Origin: a virus
Virus record (IMG/VR): IMGVR_UViG_3300048571_000088
Span: 62,001-126,000 of that record
Direction: 5' to 3' (one strand)
Length of the DNA: 64,000 nt
Part shown: in pieces, positions 13,660 to 62,170 of the stretch
How positions within the stretch are numbered: position 1 is the stretch's first letter
Layout: each line of letters starts with the position of its first letter
Notes under the pieces: model-generated
Database searches by the model: none
What the model saw: only the letters and a program-made list of their open reading frames with translations
What the model was told of the DNA's origin: nothing
Translations under genes and position numbers: made by a program

Positions 13660-13687
13660 ATGAGTGGAGAATTAATTCTCCACTCAT
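13660..13687 (-). terminator. intrinsic terminator of the RNA-polymerase-like operon
   Basis: A perfect 28-nt palindrome (ATGAGTGGAGAATT and its complement) is followed on the minus strand by ATTTTTTTAA. It lies 9 nt beyond the stop codon at 13696, so it probably ends the leftward operon. The stem core GAGTGGAGA recurs in the hairpin at 14970-14996. Confidence 0.65.
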
Positions 13688-13695
13688 GGGTTAGA

Positions 13696-14949
13696 TCAAG
13701 CTAGTAACTGATTAAAGCTGTCTGACAAACTTTTCAGTTTAGCAGTAGCTTCTTCTTTACTCGCCTGTTTGTTTGTTTCGGCAATACGGCTGATTTGATA
13801 GATTGGTTCTACCAGTTCACCAAAGAATGAATTCTCTTGGATGAAGTTTTCATGTTGCTTGTAGTTGACTAGTTTGTCACCTACTGGGAAAACTCCTTTA
13901 TTATGGACGCGAAGAAAATCACTACAAGCTTGAAGAATACCTGTTGTGTTTGCCCAATTAATAATTGAGAACATCATTGCAACTTGATCAGGACTTAATT
14001 CTAAATCTTTAGAAAGAATTCGACTGATCTCTTTTTGGTGTTGTGGTTTTGCCATGTTTCGTAAGTACAGTAATTCGAAACTGGAAGAACCTCCTGCGGT
14101 ATGTTTAACACTATCCATTACAAAGTCTTGAAGACCTCGAATATAGATAAATGTTAGTGTTTGATACATTTTATCGGTCAGGCGTAACATTGGAAACTCT
14201 AACTTATCTTGCTTAAAGTTTCCTTTACATTTGATTGCAGTTTTCTGGTACATTTCTGCACACATTGCAAAAACCCAACCATTATTTGTTGCTGGTCCGA
14301 TAGCTGCCTTAGCGTCGCGAGCGTTTAACAGACAATCCATGTAGGAGAGTTTGTATGAACGCTCCTTGAGGTTTAATTCTCTTGCATAAGGCATTTCATG
14401 TAATTGATATACCATTTCTTTGTCGAATAAAGAATCTGCTTCGTATTCGCCTTCTAGGAAGTTTTTATTCCAGTTTAATTCTTCTTGGCAAGGGATCATT
14501 TTAATGTAATCTGGACGATCATCTGCTTGTTTGAAGCAGTAAATGGGCGCTAAATCGCCATCACTATCCGCATGCGAAAAATAGACAATAGATTCTTTGT
14601 CTATTAATATGATATCTTTATTTTTCTCTGTGTCTAGGTAGTTATCAATCAGAATCTTGTGATTATTTGCTAAGTGGTTAGCAAAATCATCTCGACTCCA
14701 GACTCGTAACTCACGGAACATACTCATCCATAGACAAGGGTGTCGCATGAAGTTAAGCTTGAAACCACGAGTTAATTCTGTATACTCTGGTGATTCACAT
14801 TCAGAGAAACAGTATTTATATAACTTTTGATATAATTTACTATCAAAGATTACACATGTGTCTGGCGGAATCAACGCATCTGTTGATTGTTTCTTACTAA
14901 ATCCCATTACTTGTGGGGTTAGCAATGCGTATGTTCCGGTCAAAATCAT
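13696..14949 (-). CDS. putative second (beta'-like) subunit of a divergent DPBB RNA polymerase
   Basis: The key segment (codons at about 14551-14572) is HADSDGDLAPIY. It carries the D-x-D-G-D triad of the catalytic double-psi beta-barrel of two-barrel RNA polymerases (NADFDGD in bacterial beta'). About 58 residues earlier lies LNFMRHPCLWMSMFREL, in the position and style of the beta' NRAPTLHR element, followed by RVWSR. After the triad, AKAAIGPATNNGW resembles the conserved helix after the active site in YonO/QDE-1-type enzymes. The gene directly follows 15004-17184, the candidate first-barrel subunit. Start: ATG 14949 is used; an upstream GTG at 14994 has no RBS and lies in a hairpin, and a TTG at 14943 is better spaced from AAGGAG. 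417 residues from ATG. Confidence 0.6.
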   Translation of the reverse strand: MILTGTYALLTPQVMGFSKKQSTDALIPPDTCVIFDSKLYQKLYKYCFSECESPEYTELTRGFKLNFMRHPCLWMSMFRELRVWSRDDFANHLANNHKILIDNYLDTEKNKDIILIDKESIVYFSHADSDGDLAPIYCFKQADDRPDYIKMIPCQEELNWNKNFLEGEYEADSLFDKEMVYQLHEMPYARELNLKERSYKLSYMDCLLNARDAKAAIGPATNNGWVFAMCAEMYQKTAIKCKGNFKQDKLEFPMLRLTDKMYQTLTFIYIRGLQDFVMDSVKHTAGGSSSFELLYLRNMAKPQHQKEISRILSKDLELSPDQVAMMFSIINWANTTGILQACSDFLRVHNKGVFPVGDKLVNYKQHENFIQENSFFGELVEPIYQISRIAETNKQASKEEATAKLKSLSDSFNQLLA

Positions 14950-14969
14950 TCTCCTTGGTTTTGAAAGAT

Positions 14970-14996
14970 GAGTGGAGACATCATAAATCTCCACTC
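14970..14996 (-). promoter_or_regulatory. hairpin between the two polymerase-like genes
   Basis: GAGTGGAGA and TCTCCACTC form a 9-bp stem with a 9-nt loop between 15004-17184 and 13696-14949. The stem sequence repeats that of the operon's terminal palindrome at 13660. It may set the ratio of the two products or mark an RNA processing site. Confidence 0.5.
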
Positions 14997-15003
14997 TGTT
15001 GGA

Positions 15004-17184
15004 TTACAGTTCTGCACCTTGGTACAGTAACTTGTTAACTTCGTTCAAGTAAGCATTTAACTCTGTGTAACGCTTTTTACTTGGGTCTTGTTCAAACACA
15101 AATAAATAACGTGGAGTACCCATGCAATACTTTAAGATGTTAGAGATACGGATAATAACTTGATGGTAAGTCCAAGTTTTATCAGGGAGTTGGTTTACAA
15201 ACATGTTCAGTGTCTGAGCAGATGGTACTCGGATAACTGGTGCATTGTTGTAATTCATACCTTTAAACGATAACAAGAAGCCGTTTGGATTCCATTCAGG
15301 ATCGAGTAGTTTTGATGTACTCTTGAATGTACTGATTGCTGTTTCAATAAGGTCTTGTTGGGAGAAAACAGAACCTTTTGTTACTGATTTAGCAGAGTAC
15401 ATAGGAAGTTTATCCGTAGGGAACAAACTACCAGTGAGATCAGTTTTGATTTTCATCAATTCATCTACACACTTTTTGTCTGTTTCTGAGACGTACTTAT
15501 CCCAAATGTGCTTCTGTAGAGCTTTGTTACCGTTCTGCGCTAGAAAACGTCCTGTTTCAAACATGAAAGACATTGGTTTTGCTTTACCATAAGTCTGAGC
15601 TAACTCTGTGAAACGAGTATAGACTAGGCCGATGAAGACTTCCGTTTCGAGACCAAATTCGTCAACATAACGAAACTTTGGCAAAGATTTGAAAGCAGCG
15701 TTAACCATCTCCACATTGTTAGCATCAAGAATTCCCCATTTGTTTTTGGGTTTGTAAGTACCCATTTTGACAGCCAATGTAGCTCCAGCCAGTACAATTG
15801 TATTGACTTTAGCTTTGATTGCATTAGCACCTACAGCAAGATCAGGAGTAAGAGAAGGATATGAGCCTTCAAGGAACTCAATGAAACCTAGATTAGGTTT
15901 ACATTTTGTTACTCCCTTTAAACCTGTGTTAGAGTCTATACGTGCATTTCCTGCTGTTTTAGTGAGCAGAAGACGTAGCTTTCTTGCACCTAGGGTACCA
16001 GAATGAGTGAGAGACTCTAACTTGATTTCATTGATATTTTTGACCTCGATTGGTTTATCTTGGACATCAACACCAACAACAAATTTACCTGAAGGACAAT
16101 GGACAGACTCTCCAATCTTCAAGTTGATTTCATTGAACATGTCAGTAATACTAACAGACTGCATAATCTGTTGAGAGACATATTTAGGTGAAGCTTCAAT
16201 TTCACCAGCTAAGAATCGGCCATGACTGGACATACGACAGAATACAACAACAGATTCAGAAAGACAATCATCTCGAGAGACATAAGAATCTGTTGTTGGA
16301 TCGTATAGACAATCTTGAGCGATTACTGAAGTTGCTGGATTTCTTAAAGCAATTGCATCTGAGATTAAATGAGTTTTTAAGCGAGCTACAATGTTCTGAG
16401 CAGGAGGAAAGATTGAAAAGAAACTCTTTCCAGTCTCTTTATATCCTGGCGAACGATATAATGGATTTGATGGGTTATAAGGATGTACGACAAGTTTACC
16501 AGTCATAGAGAAAGAAGACTCTGATGAGGGATGGACTGGTAAGTCTTTAATGACCATTCGACAGGTTTCTGAAGAAGGTTTATAAGCATTTTGTCGTAGA
16601 ATTTCACCTAGTAACCGTAGAGGATGAGTATCTAAGAGTACAGGTTTGAGTTGAGTTGAGTTTAGTCGATCCCAAGGAGACAGGATGACGAAAGTATTTG
16701 ATACTTTCTTGAAGGCATTATAAGCTTTAGGAGTATTGTAATCCATGAAGGCTTGTAAAGCTCCAATGTCACCAGAGAGAAGATAACCGAAAGCTTTTTG
16801 ATCACTTTTGGCGTACTCTGAAAACATGTAAAGACGATGCTGTAATAGCATGTATAGAAGTTGATTCTGGTTAAGAATGCAATTTGAGTTTGTTGAAAAA
16901 TAATCAATCTTTTTGGATGATTTGAAAGATGAAATTTCAAAGAGGAATTTGGGAAATTGGGTTTTTGAAGCTTTTGGATTGTAAATTGAAGCTGAAATTT
17001 CGATTTCAGTGTTTTCTTGATCTGAATTGAAAAGACTCAAAACAAGAAATGTCTGCATTTTTAATTCCCATTTGAATAAAGATTCAAATCCTTTTGGGAT
17101 TAAAAGATCAATTTCAGAAGCATCAAGATTTTCTGGAATAAACGGAACTTCAGAAAAATCGATTGGGCGATTTGTGATTGCCAT
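15004..17184 (-). CDS. putative first (beta-like) subunit of a divergent DPBB RNA polymerase
   Basis: 726 residues. Residues 405-426 read LLLTKTAGNA...TGLKGVT, which matches the K-x-AG ... G-x-KGV element of the first double-psi barrel in beta subunits (KMAGRHGNKGV), whose two Lys contact the nascent RNA. The N-terminal 400 residues are unrecognised. Gene order (this gene, then the DxDGD gene) mirrors rpoB-rpoC. The 1144-residue protein at 46179 has a comparable TGLANKGSVTK element. If correct, this is a minimal split polymerase lacking most accessory domains; structure prediction of the two chains together would be the decisive test. The start follows an AGGAGT box. Confidence 0.58.
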   Translation of the reverse strand: MAITNRPIDFSEVPFIPENLDASEIDLLIPKGFESLFKWELKMQTFLVLSLFNSDQENTEIEISASIYNPKASKTQFPKFLFEISSFKSSKKIDYFSTNSNCILNQNQLLYMLLQHRLYMFSEYAKSDQKAFGYLLSGDIGALQAFMDYNTPKAYNAFKKVSNTFVILSPWDRLNSTQLKPVLLDTHPLRLLGEILRQNAYKPSSETCRMVIKDLPVHPSSESSFSMTGKLVVHPYNPSNPLYRSPGYKETGKSFFSIFPPAQNIVARLKTHLISDAIALRNPATSVIAQDCLYDPTTDSYVSRDDCLSESVVVFCRMSSHGRFLAGEIEASPKYVSQQIMQSVSITDMFNEINLKIGESVHCPSGKFVVGVDVQDKPIEVKNINEIKLESLTHSGTLGARKLRLLLTKTAGNARIDSNTGLKGVTKCKPNLGFIEFLEGSYPSLTPDLAVGANAIKAKVNTIVLAGATLAVKMGTYKPKNKWGILDANNVEMVNAAFKSLPKFRYVDEFGLETEVFIGLVYTRFTELAQTYGKAKPMSFMFETGRFLAQNGNKALQKHIWDKYVSETDKKCVDELMKIKTDLTGSLFPTDKLPMYSAKSVTKGSVFSQQDLIETAISTFKSTSKLLDPEWNPNGFLLSFKGMNYNNAPVIRVPSAQTLNMFVNQLPDKTWTYHQVIIRISNILKYCMGTPRYLFVFEQDPSKKRYTELNAYLNEVNKLLYQGAEL

Positions 17185-18187: not shown

Positions 18188-19426
18188 TTAAATGATTTCT
18201 GCTGAATTGTAATTTTCTGATTCAACAGTTTCATCAAGAATTGTTTGTTCGTTGATTGATTCTTCATTCAAACTTGCAAGCATGGCTTCCAATGAATCTG
18301 GAATTGAATCAATTGCATTGGAATGCAAAGATAAACCGTTACTTGGATTTGCATTCTGAGTGTAAGAATTGATTCGAACGCCAACAAAAGAATGTCCATT
18401 TCGAGCACTGTTGTTTCCAACTGTTGCAACGAATGTTTGAACTTGACCTTGAACGAACATTTCTGTTGGTGTTTCTGTCACTTCTTCAAAGACCATTGAA
18501 CGAGTTCGAGCATCTTCTTTGCCAGTATTGAATGCTGTATCCATTACTGTTGCAATGATTGCTGTTTGATGTCCTTGGGAATCTTGAGCAGTTGCCATTG
18601 TTGAAGTTGCGTGCATTCCTTTTTCAGTGTTGGTTAAAGAATTGCGACCAATATTCAATCCTGTTTCATCTGGAGCAGAAGAAGTATTGGTAACAATGAA
18701 TCCATTTACACTGTTTACTGTTGGACAGTAAGTAAACTTGAATCGTTCTGCTAGACCTTTTAGATCACCCCAAGGATTTGTTGCACTTTGAGATGCTGGT
18801 GATAAAGCGTAAACAGGAACGATATTTTCAGTCAGGAAAACTTGTGAACGACGAAGTAAACCTTTTGCAATCACTTTCTTACGGATTTCTTGATATTGCT
18901 CAAATGCTTGTTTGGTTGCATCTTTAGCCAATTCTTCATCAGTGATTGTTGCTTCAATTTCACTGATCGCTTTCATCAAGATTTCGTAAGCTTGAGTTGT
19001 TACTGTGTTTGGTACATCTAGAGCTGGTAAATGTACATCACGGAATTGACAGTCTGAAGCTAATAAAGCATTGAATGAGTTTGCTTTACCATCAATCTTA
19101 AGAGACTGAAACATATCAAACACACCTTTTGCTGTGTTACGATATACTGATTCACCTTTATTCGTAATGCTTAATTCAGCTCGTCCGTTAACTGCTACCC
19201 AAATTGTACGAGTTGCATTGAGTCCACTAGAGTATGGTTCAATGATGTACATTGGAATGCAATGATAGGTTGTTACTTTACCTTTACTATTAAGTAATGG
19301 GATATTTTCTACGATTCGTGAGGAATGACGAAAAGCCAATACTGTTGCTAGTAGTTGGCAAGGAGTCGACCGTTGATTGGTTTGGACTTTTGCTTGTGTT
19401 GCTTGAGAGAGGTCTAGAGAAGACAT
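18188..19426 (-). CDS. hypothetical protein, 412 aa, first gene of the polymerase-like operon
   Basis: A soluble protein with an Asn/Ser/Thr-rich middle and a long acidic C-terminal tail (about residues 370-412). Acidic tails of this kind occur on ssDNA-binding proteins and chaperones, but the end is not the SSB tip. Not recognised. It precedes the small membrane proteins and the two polymerase-like subunits, so a role in the same process (a DNA-binding or assembly partner) is a reasonable guess only. Confidence 0.75.
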   Translation of the reverse strand: MSSLDLSQATQAKVQTNQRSTPCQLLATVLAFRHSSRIVENIPLLNSKGKVTTYHCIPMYIIEPYSSGLNATRTIWVAVNGRAELSITNKGESVYRNTAKGVFDMFQSLKIDGKANSFNALLASDCQFRDVHLPALDVPNTVTTQAYEILMKAISEIEATITDEELAKDATKQAFEQYQEIRKKVIAKGLLRRSQVFLTENIVPVYALSPASQSATNPWGDLKGLAERFKFTYCPTVNSVNGFIVTNTSSAPDETGLNIGRNSLTNTEKGMHATSTMATAQDSQGHQTAIIATVMDTAFNTGKEDARTRSMVFEEVTETPTEMFVQGQVQTFVATVGNNSARNGHSFVGVRINSYTQNANPSNGLSLHSNAIDSIPDSLEAMLASLNEESINEQTILDETVESENYNSAEII

Positions 19427-20803: not shown

Positions 20804-22121
20804 TTATTTAGATATTTCGTATTTATCTTCTAGCCAATTTTTTAAAAAGGTTCTCATTCTTTTGGAAGGTATATACAGATTAATCTCTTCATTGTTTCTT
20901 ATTGCTGATCTCCAAATAAACTGTACCATCTCAGATATAGCATATACATCTTCTTTAACACTAAAGCCCCTAGCTGATGAGGCTTTAACTAATTCAGGAT
21001 TAGGGTAAAGATTAAGAAGGTAAGCTACTGTATGTCGATCTCCATAGTTATTAGTAGCTTTAGTATTCATTGGTAACCATTCATTTGAATAATTGTTGAC
21101 ACCGTTCTTCTGTACTCTTGTTTTACAATCTTTAAAACAAGTCCAGAGTAAATCTGATTTTTTACATTTGGCTTTATTTCTAATGTAATTGTCTAAGTTA
21201 GCAGAAAGTGTGTCTTTGACTGCTGTTTGTTTGCAGTTAGTAGAAGATAAAGCAGATTCTTTACTGCCTGTTTCATTTAATTTCCCTCTTAAAGTGTCTT
21301 CGTAGACATTAATTAGATGTTTTATTTCTGAAGGTTTTTTACCAAATCTGATAACTTCATAATCTAAGCCATGAGCTTTTAAGTAAGTAGCCATGATATT
21401 ATCTTCGAACATGTATGTGGCAATCCATACTTCTTTAAAAGCTTTTAAAGCATTAATTGCAAGTTCCCATATCACTACTTTTCCGTCTATCAGCATTAAC
21501 TGCCCTAAGTCACACAAAGTAGCAAATGTTTCGTAATAAGTATCTTTAGTAGTATCTCTTCCGTTAGAAGTGTCTCCATAATTTTCTCTGTGAAATTTAA
21601 GAGTAATCCCGTCTGTTTCTTCTAGTGTGATCCAACCATTATCAAACATAGCTTTTATTTCTTTCTCATTGTAGACATCATAGATCTCATACACACTTAA
21701 CATCTCATCAATTACTAAGATATAATCTCTAGCCTGCTTAAGTATTTCTGGTGTTAAGTTAACAAAGAGTTGATGAGTACTTACTATGTTATCATTATTC
21801 TTTAATAACTGAGGAAGAGATTCAGCCTTACCTCCTTTATTCGAGAAATAAGGATGTTTGAACACTCTATCTTTAAGAGGAGTTTCTTCTGCTTCGTTAT
21901 ATTGGTACAGTAAAGAAGAATCATCACTCTCTACAATGATCGGCCTTTTATATAAGTCTTCAGGATCATACACTGTTCCTGCAATTCTGTGACACTCTGT
22001 GAGTAGTGGTGTTATAAATATGTACTTTTGAGACATGTCAGAGTTTTTAATATTTTCAATAACCTTAGTTGTTTTGCCTGACCCGCATCATTGCATCGTA
22101 CACTTTAATGTTTGTTTTCAT
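20804..22121 (-). pseudogene. helicase-like ATPase interrupted by a 1-nt frameshift in Walker A
   Basis: The true start is the ATG at 22119-22121 (AAGGA upstream). It reads MKTNIKVYDAMM and goes out of frame at about 22084. Shifting by one base gives GSGKTTKVIENI, then a continuous open frame (from about 22083 to 20804) with ITPLLTECHR, LVIDEML and MVQFIWRSAIR, collinear with the plus-strand ATPase at 23251-24576 (IDAIMGAGKSS ... ITPLLSECHR ... LIVDEAL ... MIQFIWRSAIR). One surplus base in ATGATGCGGGTC explains it. It may be a real mutation, a sequencing indel or a programmed shift; without it the protein would be about 438 residues. Confidence 0.7.
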
Positions 22122-23250: not shown

Positions 23251-24576
23251 ATGACTAAAATTACAGTAATAGATGCAATAATGGGAGCAGGAAAGAGTTC
23301 TTATATTACCCATCTTATTCATAAAGCACCACATGATCAATCTTTTCTTTACATCACTCCGTTACTAAGTGAATGTCACAGGGTAGCTTGTACTACTTCA
23401 ACAAGATCTAAAGGAGAACCACCAAAGAGAGATTCTAATAATAATATTATCTATACAGAAACTACTAATCCTAATGCAGTAGATATAAGATATAGAAAGT
23501 TTAAACACCCTGAAGTGAAGAGTAGTGGAGGTAAGATTGATAGTTTAAAATATCTAGTTGAGCATAAGCATAATATTACTTCTACCCACTCATTACTCCT
23601 AAGACTAGAAGCGCAAAAAACAGAGTTATTTAATCTTAAAGATTATATATTGATAGTAGATGAAGCTTTAAATGCTTACTCTGAATATGATCAACTCAGT
23701 GCTTATACTGTTAAGCAACAGATTAAGAATGGATTATTTAGTATAGATCCAGATGGGTTTACACTTTTATTTCATCCAGAAGTTATAGGTACAACAGGGA
23801 GTATAGAAGGTTTAACTCAGTTAGAAGAGTATGCTGAACTTTGTAACAGGAGAGTATTACTTTTTGTGGGAGGTAAGATTATAGTTTGGGAGTTAAGTCC
23901 TGATTTATTAAACTCATTTAAAGAGGTGTGGTTTTGCACGTACCAATATAAAGGTACAGTATTGGATACTTATTTAATATCCAATGGATTTCAAGTACAG
24001 ATTACAACAATACCTACTAATAAGAAACCTTCTGACTATAAGCCTCTTATTACTATTATTGAAGAAGATAAACTGAATGCTATAGGCGCAGAAAAATACT
24101 CTTTAAGCTACACTGCTATGGAAGAGGTAGAAACTTTAGAAGTACTCAGAAAGAATTTGATGAATTTTTTTATCACTAAATGCTGTAACGCTACAGCGAA
24201 AGATCGTATCTGGACTTCCTATAAAGAGAAAAGAGATGTTAATAATAGAATTATTATTGTTAATAAAGTTATAGCAGGCAAAAATTACTTTAAACAATGG
24301 TTACCATTTAATACTAAAGCAACTAATGAATATTCTAATTGTCACAACGTAGCTTACCTTTGTAATATATTTCTTAATGTAGATATTAAGACTGTTGCTA
24401 GTAAGAAAGGTCATCCAGTTGATGAAGACATGCATGCGTTAAACGAGATGATCCAGTTTATCTGGAGATCTGCAATTAGAAACCAAGAACCAATTAATTT
24501 ATATATACCTTCTGCAAGAATGAGAAATCTCTTCAAGAGTTGGTTAAATGATGAGTACGAAATTAAGGAACTCTAA
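23251..24576 (+). CDS. SF2 helicase-like ATPase (phage replication/origin-binding type)
   Basis: 441 residues. Walker A MGAGKSS at 11-17, LIVDEAL (DExx Walker B) at 134-140, STHSLL (motif III-like) near 111, and a C-terminal QFIWRSAIR resembling motif VI with its arginine finger. This order is that of DEAD-like superfamily 2 translocases used in phage replication or origin melting. It is the lone plus-strand gene in this part and has a frameshifted minus-strand paralogue at 20804-22121. The AAGGAG box lies 13 nt from the ATG, further than usual. Confidence 0.72.
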   Translation: MTKITVIDAIMGAGKSSYITHLIHKAPHDQSFLYITPLLSECHRVACTTSTRSKGEPPKRDSNNNIIYTETTNPNAVDIRYRKFKHPEVKSSGGKIDSLKYLVEHKHNITSTHSLLLRLEAQKTELFNLKDYILIVDEALNAYSEYDQLSAYTVKQQIKNGLFSIDPDGFTLLFHPEVIGTTGSIEGLTQLEEYAELCNRRVLLFVGGKIIVWELSPDLLNSFKEVWFCTYQYKGTVLDTYLISNGFQVQITTIPTNKKPSDYKPLITIIEEDKLNAIGAEKYSLSYTAMEEVETLEVLRKNLMNFFITKCCNATAKDRIWTSYKEKRDVNNRIIIVNKVIAGKNYFKQWLPFNTKATNEYSNCHNVAYLCNIFLNVDIKTVASKKGHPVDEDMHALNEMIQFIWRSAIRNQEPINLYIPSARMRNLFKSWLNDEYEIKEL

Positions 24577-45753: not shown

Positions 45754-46178
45754 TCCATAAGAAGGTAAGCGGAGATTATGGCTTCCGCTTGTAGCCGTCA
45801 GAGAGCATTTGACTCCAGTAGGTAAAAGAACCTACAAAGAGAAAATGCCTCCAAGAGGATAAACCTCAAAAGAACCATAAGGCTCTTTCGGAGTCAACCC
45901 TCAAGAAGGGCATGATGGTCGCGCCAAACCCAGACCACCCCAAGTGAGGAATCGGAGGCGCGACCGCGAGCGCACGAGCACAATATGACACTAAGCCATA
46001 AGACGGTCGAGGCACGGAGTCACCAGTCCACATTTGTCTGGTGTATAGCGAGTAGCGAGCGGAGTAAGTGTTTTCTTTAACTACAACCCAACTCAGTACT
46101 TGTTCTTTTGGCTGCCATCTTCAGTACTAGGGAACCACCACTAGTAGACTGCCCCTCCCAGGGCAGTTTCGGCTTGTA
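45754..46178. other. 425-nt spacer with structured sequence, no gene seen
   Basis: Higher G+C than average. Contains an element at 46043-46070 (TAGCGAGTAGCGA ... GCGGAGTAAG) resembling the core of the 22.3-22.9 kb structured elements, and a terminator-like hairpin at 46148-46167. No open frame with a good RBS was found. Confidence 0.5.
46148..46167 (-). terminator. GC-rich hairpin downstream of the 1144-aa gene
   Basis: ACTGCCC/GGGCAGT with a 6-nt loop, 11 nt beyond the stop codon at 46179. The stem is stable; the following U-tract is short. Confidence 0.5.
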
Positions 46179-49100
46179 TTAAGGTTTAATTGCTACCGCT
46201 GCATTCAAGAGATACGCTTGAATGCTTTGGTTAACAACTACCTCAGGTCTTGACATCAGCTCAGTCACGTCACCGATCTTCGATACCTTATTCAGGTTAC
46301 CAAAGACCAGCTCCATGGCATCTACGTTGACTTTTGCATCATGCCCAACAGCAGCAAGTGCATGTACCATCAACGTAAGGATGATGATGTCCATCCCTTT
46401 GGCAGAAACGTTATACTCTTTCTGCAATTCCGCCGAGTAGAACATCTTCTCGAACGAAATCTGATAAGCTTCGCGCAAGCTTACAACTTCTGCTACCTTT
46501 TCAGATAACATTTTAGCTTGACGTTGCTTAATTACAGTGAGTAACGCTCCTGCATTATTGGCAAGGAGTTCCTCGGAATCCCATGCATACATTTGTACCC
46601 AAGCTTTCGCTTCAGCTTCAGTATACACAGGGGCGATACGGGCACAACTTTGGGGTGACATTACCTTCGCCAACATCTTGGCTGCCATCTCCCCAATTGC
46701 CCGTTTGATTCGATCCATCGAATCGCTTTGGGTTGCTCCACCCTGCAGATTTACCAGTGAGCGTACAACAGCCTTCACTAGTTTATCATACACATGTGCC
46801 ATACCAGCCACATTCTTACGGATACCTACCCGCATCAGCATAGTTGCTGGCAGATAGGAACCCGAAAGGAGCACCTCTTTTACAACTTTACGTGCCAAGT
46901 CCTCACGGCTCTGCGTCAATTGTTGCGCATGGGTGAAGAGTCCGACGTTACCACGTGCCAGACCAGCCTTTACAACAGCCTTGGTGATGTCTTCCCATGT
47001 ATGCAACACATGGGTAACCACTTTCGGCACCAATGGTGTCCACAAACCTTCCAATTCCGCTTTCACGAAATCAATGGTAGCTTGAGCCACTGGGTTGACA
47101 CTTTCGTCCAACGGTGCATCTTGTTGAACGACCTTACCAAGCCCATCCTTCAGAATAGACTTGTTTGGAACAAGGTAGACGCTACCTGTGTCCCCGTCAC
47201 CGTCATCCTGCCCATGCAATACGAACATTGCATTGTGCAGTTGTGCAGTACCCATCAAGATTGCATCTAAAGAAGACTGAACCTTGTTTCGCACTACCCA
47301 CACACGGCGAACAGCATTGGCCATGATGGTTGGAGGCTTGGCGAACACCGCACCAACACCTGAAGAGTAGCTCTTGCAGGCGCTGTGGTACTGCTCATCA
47401 AGCACAGGAGATGCAACTTCACCGTACCCGAGACTCCACGACGAGACGATCAGACCCGTCGACCCGTGGGCATGAACCTGCCCAAGTTGCTTGCCAAGAA
47501 CACTGTTCCGACATTCCAAGATACTCTCTTTCAAGATACCCCAGACTGTCTCTGTTCTTCCTGAAGCGTCGATAGTGGTAGTGTACCACACCGCCTCAAG
47601 TATGGCAGCAAGCAGACCTTGCGTTTTGATCAGAGTGCCTTTGTTGGACACACTGACCAGTTTTTCCAATACCTTGGTACCAGGGAAGATCATCTCAGTC
47701 CCGTCTGGGAACTGAAGATTTGCCCACTCGGCATCACCAAGTTGGAACAACTGCGCAATGACAATCTCGCCATGCAGGGTCATTCCATGGTCACGCTCCA
47801 ACCAGTTCTTTTCCTTACGAACTTCGTGAAGCGTGTTTACCATATCTTCCATATTAACATCGAAGATGTCTTTACGGTCGATGGTGCCCGGGTGTAGCAA
47901 CTTGAAAGCCAGTTGCAGTTGCTCAACATCAGCTCCTGCTTTCTCACCTTCAAGTACAGCATTTACAAATGCTTCAGCTTGGTCAGTACCATAGTTGGAG
48001 CTGATAGACTGAAGCATTTGTACGTTAGTTTTGACGCTAACGTTTTTACGACGGATTTCTCCGGCTCCAACTAACTCTAGCAGGCTTTCTGCTAGAGTTA
48101 TTCCTCTTTGCTGCGACAACGCAAAGGCTCGTTTTGTAACCGAACCCTTGTTTGCAAGGCCAGTGCAACGATGCACAGCAACTTGACAGAACGACTCAAA
48201 CCCTACCGATTCTTCTGGTACGAGTTCGAACACTGCGCAAGCTGCTGACTCAGTGATGCGGTAATCAGCATCACGTACTATCGCAACAGAGATAACATCT
48301 CCATTGGTCAGTGTTGCATCTTGCCACGGAAGGCTGGCTTTTGACGCAGCAGCTTTCACCGCTGTGTACGGCAGAATGACAATGTTAGTGTCACACTCCA
48401 TCGTCAACAACTCAGCCACCACATCAGCTTCGCGGATCAATGGATCAACCACATCTTCCACGTAGGCTAGACCAACCTTCTGACCCAGCACAGCAAACCC
48501 AACACAGCGAACTGCACCGAATTGATGCCAAGCGTGGGTGTTGAAGCCACCTGAGCCGATTGCACCACTAGCTTCAACCGCCTTGACGGTCTCTGCTTGG
48601 TACTGGCCTCGCTTGGTGCTATCTAAAGCGTACACCACCGTTGTAGCAGTGAACGGGATAGTACCATCATCCGTCGTGCCTTTCACTTGCTTCGATAGAC
48701 GAGCAATCAGTTTTTCAACCGACTCTGCCGAAACAATCCCATCTGCATCTGGTGCTGCGAATACGTTCGCTTTCCGGATATACGAATCCAGTTTTTGAAC
48801 GTACCCATGCTTTTCATGATTTTCAGCATGAAGGCTTGCACCGAAGCCTTTCTTACTGAGAGTCTCTGTTACAGCAGACTCTCCTTCATTCCAGATACCT
48901 TTCAGGACAGTTCCTGTTGGGCCATCTAGAACAACACACATGGCAGGATTAGCTCTTAATCCTGCCAGTTCCACACCGGCCTTATGCGCTAACAGAGCGT
49001 CAATAACGACTCCATTTTTGCTAGGCTGTGCGTTTTTGTCCAGCACAATGATCTGCTCTTTTTCAGCGATCAGGATAAGTTTGGTCATCTTTTCGACAGG

Positions 49101-49613
49101 CAAGATGACCCCAGCCTTCTTGCTATCCTTCCTTACGACCCGCAGATTGAATCCGTTAGGATGCCCGATGTGGAAGTCCCAGACAGACTTGTGTTGCTCA
49201 AGCCCTGCTTCTGGTTGGAGCAACTGCATAGCAGCAAGGAGGATCTGTGGCAACGCTGTTTCCAGCTCTAACGGCAACCCCAAAGCTAGCGACTCACCAG
49301 CTTTCACTGATTCCCATGCCTGTCTCAGAGGTGTCTTGATGTAACGTTTCTCTCCTTTTAGTCCAAGAGTTGTTGCACGATCTTGGAGCAGACTACGAAC
49401 CCGGATACGACAGGCATTCCGAAGCGATACAACTTGCTCCGATTGCGTACCCAGGTTCTGGGTGGTTGTGACCAACTCAGCCAGGTTATGGCAATGAGTG
49501 ATCAATGATACCAAAGCCCGGTTACGGTCTTCTGCCGCTGTATCGTGAGACGTTGTCTCATCGATGTAAGCGACCAGAGCCTCGAGGGTCTTGATGTTGG
49601 TGTTAGTAGTCAT
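46179..49613 (-). CDS. putative single-chain DPBB RNA polymerase, 1144 aa
   Basis: Residues 801-812 read GQDDGDGDTGSV, a D-x-D-G-D triad (D804, D806, D808) as in two-barrel RNA polymerases. About 40 residues before it, AKPPTIMANAVRRVWVVRN parallels the NRAPTLHR element and also the RHPCLWMS...LRVWSR region of the 13696-14949 protein. Residues 484-493, TGLANKGSVTK, parallel TGLKGVTK of 15004-17184 (the KG loop of the first barrel). Order and spacing (about 320 residues) suit a single-chain enzyme of YonO type. It is larger and more G+C-rich than the split pair. Without a structural search the call stays tentative. Confidence 0.52.
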   Translation of the reverse strand: MTTNTNIKTLEALVAYIDETTSHDTAAEDRNRALVSLITHCHNLAELVTTTQNLGTQSEQVVSLRNACRIRVRSLLQDRATTLGLKGEKRYIKTPLRQAWESVKAGESLALGLPLELETALPQILLAAMQLLQPEAGLEQHKSVWDFHIGHPNGFNLRVVRKDSKKAGVILPVEKMTKLILIAEKEQIIVLDKNAQPSKNGVVIDALLAHKAGVELAGLRANPAMCVVLDGPTGTVLKGIWNEGESAVTETLSKKGFGASLHAENHEKHGYVQKLDSYIRKANVFAAPDADGIVSAESVEKLIARLSKQVKGTTDDGTIPFTATTVVYALDSTKRGQYQAETVKAVEASGAIGSGGFNTHAWHQFGAVRCVGFAVLGQKVGLAYVEDVVDPLIREADVVAELLTMECDTNIVILPYTAVKAAASKASLPWQDATLTNGDVISVAIVRDADYRITESAACAVFELVPEESVGFESFCQVAVHRCTGLANKGSVTKRAFALSQQRGITLAESLLELVGAGEIRRKNVSVKTNVQMLQSISSNYGTDQAEAFVNAVLEGEKAGADVEQLQLAFKLLHPGTIDRKDIFDVNMEDMVNTLHEVRKEKNWLERDHGMTLHGEIVIAQLFQLGDAEWANLQFPDGTEMIFPGTKVLEKLVSVSNKGTLIKTQGLLAAILEAVWYTTTIDASGRTETVWGILKESILECRNSVLGKQLGQVHAHGSTGLIVSSWSLGYGEVASPVLDEQYHSACKSYSSGVGAVFAKPPTIMANAVRRVWVVRNKVQSSLDAILMGTAQLHNAMFVLHGQDDGDGDTGSVYLVPNKSILKDGLGKVVQQDAPLDESVNPVAQATIDFVKAELEGLWTPLVPKVVTHVLHTWEDITKAVVKAGLARGNVGLFTHAQQLTQSREDLARKVVKEVLLSGSYLPATMLMRVGIRKNVAGMAHVYDKLVKAVVRSLVNLQGGATQSDSMDRIKRAIGEMAAKMLAKVMSPQSCARIAPVYTEAEAKAWVQMYAWDSEELLANNAGALLTVIKQRQAKMLSEKVAEVVSLREAYQISFEKMFYSAELQKEYNVSAKGMDIIILTLMVHALAAVGHDAKVNVDAMELVFGNLNKVSKIGDVTELMSRPEVVVNQSIQAYLLNAAVAIKP

Positions 49614-60901: not shown

Positions 60902-62170
60902 ATGGACAAGAATACACAGATTCAAGATATATTTAAAAAAGCTGAATTACTAGCTGGTAAGAAAGTAGAAACAAAAGAAGAGACGTTACCAGACCCCAAG
61001 AAGATTCAGTTACCTAGTGAGTATGTAACTCTTTCAGGGATTATGTTAGATTCTAAAGATGTAATGACAAATACAAACTTCCTATCGAAGCTGACACTAA
61101 ACGATCAGAACTACAAAGACATGACGTTTACACCAGAACAAGCTAAAAAGATTCAAAGAGAACTTACTAAATCTACAGCAGGCGTTATAAGTGCAACACC
61201 ATTAACATGCTTAGGTCCTAATTGTACTTTTGCTTCTACTTGTATTGCAAAAGGTACTGAAGTCTTGACATACACTAGCAAAAATGGTGTTAAACATATT
61301 GAAGATTTAGTTGCTGGAGATATTATATATTCCTTTAACTCTAAAACTAAAGAAATAGAGCACGATCCAGTAGTCGCAGTAAAATTCATGGGTAGTAAAG
61401 AAGTATATAATGTCGTTACCACGACTGGCTTATCTTTACTTTGTACTATAGATCATCTAGTACTTACAGAGAGGAATGATGACCTTGTTTACCTAACTAT
61501 TCAAGACGGTTTACAAGTAGGGGATAAATTATTCTTGGCAGACACTGAAGACTACTTAGAGAATATTTATGAATCTTATGGAGATCTATTAGTAGACACT
61601 ATAGAATCAATACAAAAACAAGACGTAACTGATGTCTATGATATAGAAGTAAGAAAGAATCATAACTTCTTTGCTAATAACATATGTGTACATAATTGTG
61701 TATTTCAGCAAGAAGGTAAGGCACCAATCGGACAAGACTGTATCATTGAAACGAACCAAATTAAATATTGGATGGAAAGGTATATCCAAGAGTTTGAAGT
61801 TGATGGTTCTTCATTAACTGATCTGCACATGATTGCTAGATTATGTGAGTATGATGTCCTAGAGATGAGGGCTACTAAATATCTTAAACTTAATGATCAG
61901 AATTTACTTACGGATTTTATTTCATCTTTTGACGAGAATGGCAACCCAATAACAAATAAAGTTCTATCTCCTGCATTCGAACTAAAAGAAAGAGTAGACA
62001 GGATGCGTTCTAAGACATTAAAAGAATTAATGGCTACAAGAGAAGCTAAAGCTAAGATCCTTACTGCTAATGGAAAAACAAGTACACTCCACTTAAGCGA
62101 TCTAAAAGAACAATTAGATGCGATAATTAAAAACAAATCTAAAATAATTGATGTCACACCAGTAGAGTAA
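60902..62170 (+). CDS. Cys-rich phage protein interrupted by a mini-intein, 422-codon precursor
   Basis: Residues 114-265 are an intein (see separate entry). The spliced product would be 270 residues. The joined region (CLGPNCTFASTC + VFQQEGKAPIGQDC) is a four-Cys cluster likely to bind zinc. The rest is helical with no recognised domain. Its place between cell-wall genes and a TnsA-like nuclease could suit a DNA-packaging or virion-DNA protein, but that is a guess. Confidence 0.72.
   Translation: MDKNTQIQDIFKKAELLAGKKVETKEETLPDPKKIQLPSEYVTLSGIMLDSKDVMTNTNFLSKLTLNDQNYKDMTFTPEQAKKIQRELTKSTAGVISATPLTCLGPNCTFASTCIAKGTEVLTYTSKNGVKHIEDLVAGDIIYSFNSKTKEIEHDPVVAVKFMGSKEVYNVVTTTGLSLLCTIDHLVLTERNDDLVYLTIQDGLQVGDKLFLADTEDYLENIYESYGDLLVDTIESIQKQDVTDVYDIEVRKNHNFFANNICVHNCVFQQEGKAPIGQDCIIETNQIKYWMERYIQEFEVDGSSLTDLHMIARLCEYDVLEMRATKYLKLNDQNLLTDFISSFDENGNPITNKVLSPAFELKERVDRMRSKTLKELMATREAKAKILTANGKTSTLHLSDLKEQLDAIIKNKSKIIDVTPVE
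61241..61696 (+). mobile_element. mini-intein, 152 aa, in the 60902 gene
   Basis: Begins CIAKGTEVLTYTSKNG (block A with Cys1), contains GLSLLCTIDHLVLTE (block B, TxxH type), and ends VYDIEVRKNHNFFANNICVHN (blocks F and G) followed by Cys+1. All splicing residues (Cys1, block B His, penultimate His, terminal Asn, Cys+1) are present. At 152 residues it has no homing endonuclease. It interrupts a Cys of the host protein's probable metal-binding cluster. Confidence 0.9.

Follow-up and report, generated by a model that had tools for sequence, protein, structure and literature searches.

Do two adjacent genes of a large virus encode the separated halves of one RNA polymerase? The question is raised by genes A and B, which lie on the minus strand of a 64,000-nucleotide stretch of DNA (the window) comprising bases 62,001-126,000 of the 242,588-base virus record IMGVR_UViG_3300048571_000088 (G000); their coordinates are given here in window numbering. 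Gene A is an open reading frame (ORF) of 726 residues at 15004..17184 (-), and gene B is an ORF at 13696..14949 (-). An initial annotation had proposed that the two encode a split, highly divergent two-barrel RNA polymerase, with β-like elements in A followed by β′-like elements in B, and both ORFs, with the quoted motifs, are indeed found at this place on the minus strand. From the sequence comparisons set out below it is likely that A and B together make up a divergent phage two-barrel RNA polymerase, A being the β-like half with the predicted first barrel and B the β′-like half with the predicted metal-binding triad, which was ancestrally a single chain and has been split at the position that divides β from β′.

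A tblastn search of 50,697 phage records gave matches only in the Acinetobacter jumbo phage vB_AbaM_ME3 (ME3), whose original isolate is reportedly lost (PMC8878043), to A at 35% over 98% (E 1e-100) and to B at 33% over 80% (E 5e-60), and in fragments within PBAB25. Scans of IMG/VR added one contig, UViG_3300008122_000001 (G001; 183,705 bases), which encodes a member of the same family at 31-39% identity, the three homologs sharing only 31-45% identity. No relative was found in a motif-seeded scan of 84,980 bacterial and archaeal genomes or in the plasmid collection. PBAB25 (MG366115) was rejected as a third relative: the record is flagged UNVERIFIED and is siphophage-like, with ME3-like fragments joined inside other ORFs, and is probably a chimeric mis-assembly. 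ME3 and G001 are thus the only independent relatives in the collections searched. Over its larger part the ME3 terminase is 57% identical to its counterparts in G000 and G001, and these three phages therefore form one lineage.

In contrast to the two ORFs of the window, G001 has a single uninterrupted ORF of 1139 residues, the N-terminal part of which aligns with A and the C-terminal part with B. In ME3, of the genus Metrivirus, the same motifs occur in the same gene order in gp152 and gp154, which are labelled 'hypothetical protein' in the record with an 'endonuclease' between them. The product of gp152 runs on into the first part of B as far as HVRNPS, and that of gp154 resumes at LWRTQ; the endonuclease ORF lies between the two, as does a group I intron (RF00028, 51.0 bits). 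Removal of L001:10446-11722 from ME3 (splice 10445/11723) yields in-frame HVRNPSLWRTQLV, matching HVRAPSLWRKQ of G001, and the spliced product HVRNPSLWRTQLVRVKIWSY can be set side by side with HVRAPSLWRKQNIPVKIWNQ of G001. In group I introns the exon ends in U and the intron in G; in ME3 a T precedes the intron and a G is its last base. With a conserved core, these borders and a frame that is restored on removal, the ME3 sequence has the features of a group I intron, and the homolog is one polypeptide after predicted splicing. The intron is located inside the predicted catalytic RxPxL motif, an active-site motif being the kind of site that such introns favour. Where ME3 has one chain after splicing, with an intron and endonuclease in RxPxL, the window has two ORFs split by a stop. 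A parallel to ME3 is seen in several SPβ-like phages, in which the gene for the polymerase YonO is interrupted by other ORFs, one of them annotated as a GIY-YIG nuclease.

The predicted catalytic residues of the second barrel lie in B. RHPCLW (14728..14745, -), the counterpart of NRAPTLHR in β′ and LRSPHLFR in YonO, aligns with RAPSLW in G001 and RNPSLW in ME3. It is followed after about 60 residues by DSDGD (14554..14568, -), the predicted catalytic metal-binding aspartate triad (D143, D145 and D147 of B), which reads DIDGD and DVDGD in the relatives, so that all three aspartates are invariant at this level of identity. About 90 residues further on, in the form [AN][IV]Gxx[ST]N, comes IGPATN (14284..14301, -), the counterpart of the IGxx[ST]N that follows the triad in the YonO family; the three homologs have AIGPATNNGW, NIGLSTNDGW and AVGLATNDGW, compared with NIGEYSNN in YonO and GVGKITND and RIGEYSNY in distant YonO-like proteins. 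In YonO and these distant proteins the motifs likewise follow one another as R[SAN]P, then in most cases DxDGD, then IGxx[ST]N. The initial likening of RHPCLW and DSDGD to the second-barrel elements NRAPTLHR and NADFDGD is supported both by the alignment of the three homologs and by the block test described below.

The predicted active-site loop of the first barrel is A411-T426 of A, AGNARIDSNTGLKGVT (15907..15954, -), proposed from conservation and spacing. Among the three homologs, no other 15 residues of the protein are as well conserved as those within it, and it holds two invariant residues, R415 and K423, whose spacing of eight residues is that of K1065 and K1073 in E. coli β (KMAGRHGNK). 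In 130,154 translated residues there are two instances of the pattern [KR]x5GxKG[VIL], one of these being in this loop. The initial annotation had matched KTAG to the K-x-AG element of β, which is wrong in detail: the lysine, Lys409, is arginine in G001 and valine in ME3, and the invariant pair is R415 and K423.

The reading frame of A is also that of B; between them stand one TAA (15004..15006, -) and three codons, after which comes a GTG. Starting from this GTG at 14994, B would have 432 residues (13696-14994); from ATG 14949 it would have 417, and TTG 14943 is also possible. The GTG falls within the stem of a hairpin and lacks a Shine-Dalgarno sequence, and TTG 14943 or ATG 14949 (415-417 residues) is the likelier start because the Shine-Dalgarno sequence AAGGAG at 14951..14956 (-) points there. 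The hairpin, GAGTGGAGA-N9-TCTCCACTC, is at 14970..14996 (-), the 101-nucleotide junction having a fold z-score of -2.96. A second copy of its stem, followed by a T run and terminator-like, comes after B at 13662..13685 (-). The 9-bp stem is identical after A and after B and has just these two occurrences in the 242-kb record, and extended similarity of the two flanks is not significant (0.28 and 0.60); we therefore do not claim that the split arose by copy-and-paste from the 3′ end of B.

The window junction is about 20 codons longer than in the relatives, the extra codons holding the hairpin, AAGGAG and the possible starts. It looks like a normal intercistronic junction in layout, since the end of the nearby 412-residue gene at 18188 shows the same arrangement of stop, hairpin and Shine-Dalgarno sequence. 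This argues against the possibility that the split is unreal, with ribosomes reading through the TAA, or the TAA a mistake of assembly, so that one chain of 1162 residues is made. Such a chain is suggested by the shared frame, in which there is no other stop, by the fused chain in the relatives and by the hairpin after the stop, as found at some read-through sites. A neighbour in the same frame is, however, expected by chance one time in three, and with ordinary intercistronic features in the added codons we consider an unreal split unlikely. The split, made between the two predicted barrels by one TAA, a hairpin and a Shine-Dalgarno sequence, is probably secondary, with single-chain YonO/RDR-type enzymes as the nearest kin in motif content, because the chain is continuous in G001 and, once the intron is removed, also in ME3. 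Since YonO too is single-chain, fission in the window lineage would probably be the simpler history for these three sequences. The initial description of a small, divergent two-barrel polymerase in two genes, β before β′, is therefore retained as to motifs and homologs and revised as to the chain, which is a single one in the relatives.

If A and B are the halves of such a polymerase, A would give the β-like barrel, with the R415/K423 loop holding the substrate phosphates, and B the β′-like barrel, with RxPxL and the DSDGD triad binding the catalytic magnesium ions. In this superfamily the aspartate triad of one barrel binds two magnesium ions, while the other barrel contributes basic residues that stabilise the reaction, the active site being at the interface (PMC7824862, PMC10770324); A and B would therefore have to pair. 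Together they have only about 1150 residues, and the greater part of the domains found in cellular enzymes must be absent, as in YonO (PMC5467207). The ancestral form would have been one chain of about 1140 residues with a motif content closest to the YonO/RDR-type single-chain enzymes, and a stop, hairpin and ribosome-binding site arising in the inter-barrel linker would have given two cistrons at the point that divides rpoB from rpoC in cells. Most likely the pair would act as a DNA-dependent RNA polymerase for a class of phage genes. It would be a non-virion enzyme, as A and B lie outside the virion-gene region as far as this is annotated in ME3.

It is quite improbable that the two barrels serve another chemistry, whether RNA-templated synthesis, primer-making or DNA synthesis like that of archaeal PolD. 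Two-barrel enzymes do include RNA-directed RDRs and PolD (PMC7824862), and the motifs are silent on the template, DxDGD with IGxx[ST]N being common to YonO/RDR-type proteins. However, ME3 is already annotated with a DNA polymerase and a primase/helicase, and the phage enzymes that have been tested, YonO and gp64/gp96 of P23-45, are DNA-dependent RNA polymerases (PMC5467207, PMC10770324).

The motifs were also scored as ordered chains of three blocks, RxPxL (B1), DxDGD and [IV]Gxx[ST]N (B3), built from 65 YonO-like sequences with the candidates excluded. The window protein scored 23.0 (one of 400 shuffles as high), G001 28.1 (none of 400) and ME3 19.8 (seven of 400), though in ME3 the third block was placed at a site other than the aligned one. 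The best of 159 background ORFs scored 19.6, below all three. Accepted members of the superfamily gave similar values (E. coli rpoC 26.2, P23-45 gp64 24.4, phi14:2 gp66 23.1), while rpoB, which does not have that barrel, scored 8.2. With DxDGD held fixed and the alignment columns shuffled, both flanking blocks together were matched in 3 of 5000 trials at the family level; singly, B1 was matched in 47 and B3 in 21 of 5000.

Several results weigh against a polymerase. DxDGD contributes a large share of the block score and is the criterion by which the case was picked, and there are just three homologs in the collections searched. Putting R415 in the place of the first catalytic lysine is our own reassignment, made where Lys409 proved not to be conserved. 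Neither A nor B has a convincing match in Pfam, PHROGs or PDB sequences, a weak PHROG match of B (0.052) not being interpretable, and the Pfam models RdRP (PF05183) and Rpb1_2 (PF00623) have no match in the window record. PF00623, the Rpb1 domain 2 model, is likewise without a match in G001 and ME3, as in G000, and matches in all 14 control genomes. Aligned with the 65 YonO-like sequences by hhalign, the family gave p = 0.59 at the wrong place, although the accepted members rpoC, gp64 and gp66 were not significant in this test either. In a Smith-Waterman alignment with E. coli rpoB the first-barrel region did no better than shuffles. AlphaFold models were of low confidence, with a mean predicted local distance difference test score (pLDDT) of 39 for the read-through chain (four sequences) and 48 for B (three sequences), and Foldseek and VIA-align found no polymerase above noise with the B model, an uninformative result in which the noise came from the helical C-terminus.

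Profile and fold searches without a significant match would fit a chance likeness, in which an unrelated phage protein whose DxDxD metal site is EF-hand-like or of some other kind happens to carry RxP and GxxTN. We regard this as very unlikely, as the ordered blocks were so rarely matched in the column shuffles and never among the background ORFs, the chain is most strongly conserved at the predicted first-barrel loop, and DSDGD lacks the glycine that an EF-hand loop would be expected to have after the third aspartate. That A and B are a polymerase relic, catalytically dead or structural, as the replaced first lysine and the high divergence might suggest, is highly improbable given that the aspartate triad, R415 and K423 are invariant at 31-45% identity and that ME3 keeps a splice-competent frame through its intron.

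One or two more candidates for two-barrel polymerases are encoded in the genome. The first is a 1144-residue ORF at 46179-49613 (-), with GQDDGDGD and then GNVGLFT, a relative of a 1200-residue ORF of G001 that has GNDFDGD and then AKNNVGSYT (E 2.7e-10; BLAST 5e-9). The G001 protein passes the block test with 26.0 (none of 400 shuffles as high) and the window protein fails it with 11.7; the triad region of the pair aligns with that of YonO (hhalign p 0.003). A type II hammerhead ribozyme (RF02276, 56.2 bits) lies at 46106-46174 (-), directly downstream of the stop of the 1144-residue ORF. The second candidate is ME3 gp036 (L008:33172-37983) with its homologs in G001 and in G000, there at 155.9-161.1 kb of the record and outside the window. 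These proteins of 1600-1760 residues share 28-35% identity, conserve [ST]REP.QG and D.DQD, sit just upstream of the baseplate hub and fail the YonO-derived block test. At the counterpart position Bacillus phage KLEB27-3 has a 2434-residue protein with NRYPTI...ADYDGD and a sub-threshold match to Rpb1 domain 2 (E 7e-5, for that genome), and in P23-45 a virion RNA polymerase is found within the tape measure protein (PMC10770324); by analogy, the gp036 family is a candidate virion RNA polymerase in the tape-measure position. It is conceivable, though we hold this only tentatively, that ME3-like jumbo phages have a new, ancestrally single-chain polymerase family in which linker fission in one phage re-created the β/β′ division independently of cells, the genome of that phage also carrying two further two-barrel polymerases, which would make up to three in one virus.

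Elsewhere in the window, the phage ORF at 60902-62170 (+) contains an intein splicing domain (PF14890, 9e-16), and the ME3 terminase has an extra segment that matches it. Two PHROG 2467 paralogs lie close together on opposite strands, at 20804-22036 (-) and 23251-24576 (+).

The ME3 protein is not named as an RNA polymerase in the portion of the ME3 record annotation covered or in the genome paper. In a survey of 224 jumbo phages an RNA polymerase of their own was found only in the phiKZ-like group and two others, including Bacillus phage 0305phi8-36 (PMC7824862), and according to a 2026 review most jumbo phages have no multisubunit RNA polymerase (PMC13282480). If the assignment of A and B is correct, ME3-type phages would be further carriers, overlooked because the enzyme has diverged so far, and may be partly independent of the host in their transcription. 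ME3 has structural genes in common with 0305phi8-36 (PMC5000817), which carries a single-chain RDR/YonO-type polymerase, orf99 (PMC2147016, PMC7824862).

Of the known systems, YonO of SPβ and its relatives, a single-chain DNA-dependent RNA polymerase, has RxPxL, DxDGD and IGxx[ST]N in the order seen in A and B and, like them, is small with few residues in common with the cellular enzymes (PMC5467207). It differs in having about 840 residues on one polypeptide, as against about 1150 in two ORFs, and in its first-barrel loop, RLPWVKG, where arginine and lysine are 5 rather than 8 apart, and the overall similarity is not significant. Both barrels on one polypeptide, the mark of the YonO/RDR clade, are predicted for G001 and for spliced ME3 but not for the window. 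A/B therefore resembles YonO in its motifs and, given the hhalign and PF05183 results, is not filed as a member of the YonO family. The absence of most cellular domains would be shared with orf99 of 0305phi8-36, gp64/gp96 of P23-45 and gp66 of phi14:2 (PMC2147016, PMC10770324), although within the phage collection A and B have no detectable overall sequence match to polymerases of the P23-45 and phi14:2 type. The multisubunit polymerases of phiKZ and AR9 also have the two barrels on separate polypeptides in a jumbo phage, but these have four or five subunits and are closer to the cellular enzymes (PMC7824862, PMC7598289), whereas here two adjacent ORFs, or single chains in the relatives, account for the whole chain.

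The likeness to rpoB-rpoC drawn in the initial annotation stands for gene order, the β-like half being upstream of the β′-like half, and the division falls at the corresponding place between the predicted barrels. The cellular RAPTLHR compares with RAPSLWR of G001, and the basic pair has the same spacing. It does not extend to motif content, which is nearest to the single-chain YonO/RDR-type enzymes, nor to size, rpoB-rpoC having about 2750 residues, and the rpoB alignment and PF00623 gave no match. The family would be a natural experiment on the interconversion of one-chain and split polymerases, its members showing three states: a single chain, a single chain whose gene has an intron within the catalytic motif, and a pair of chains divided as are cellular β and β′.

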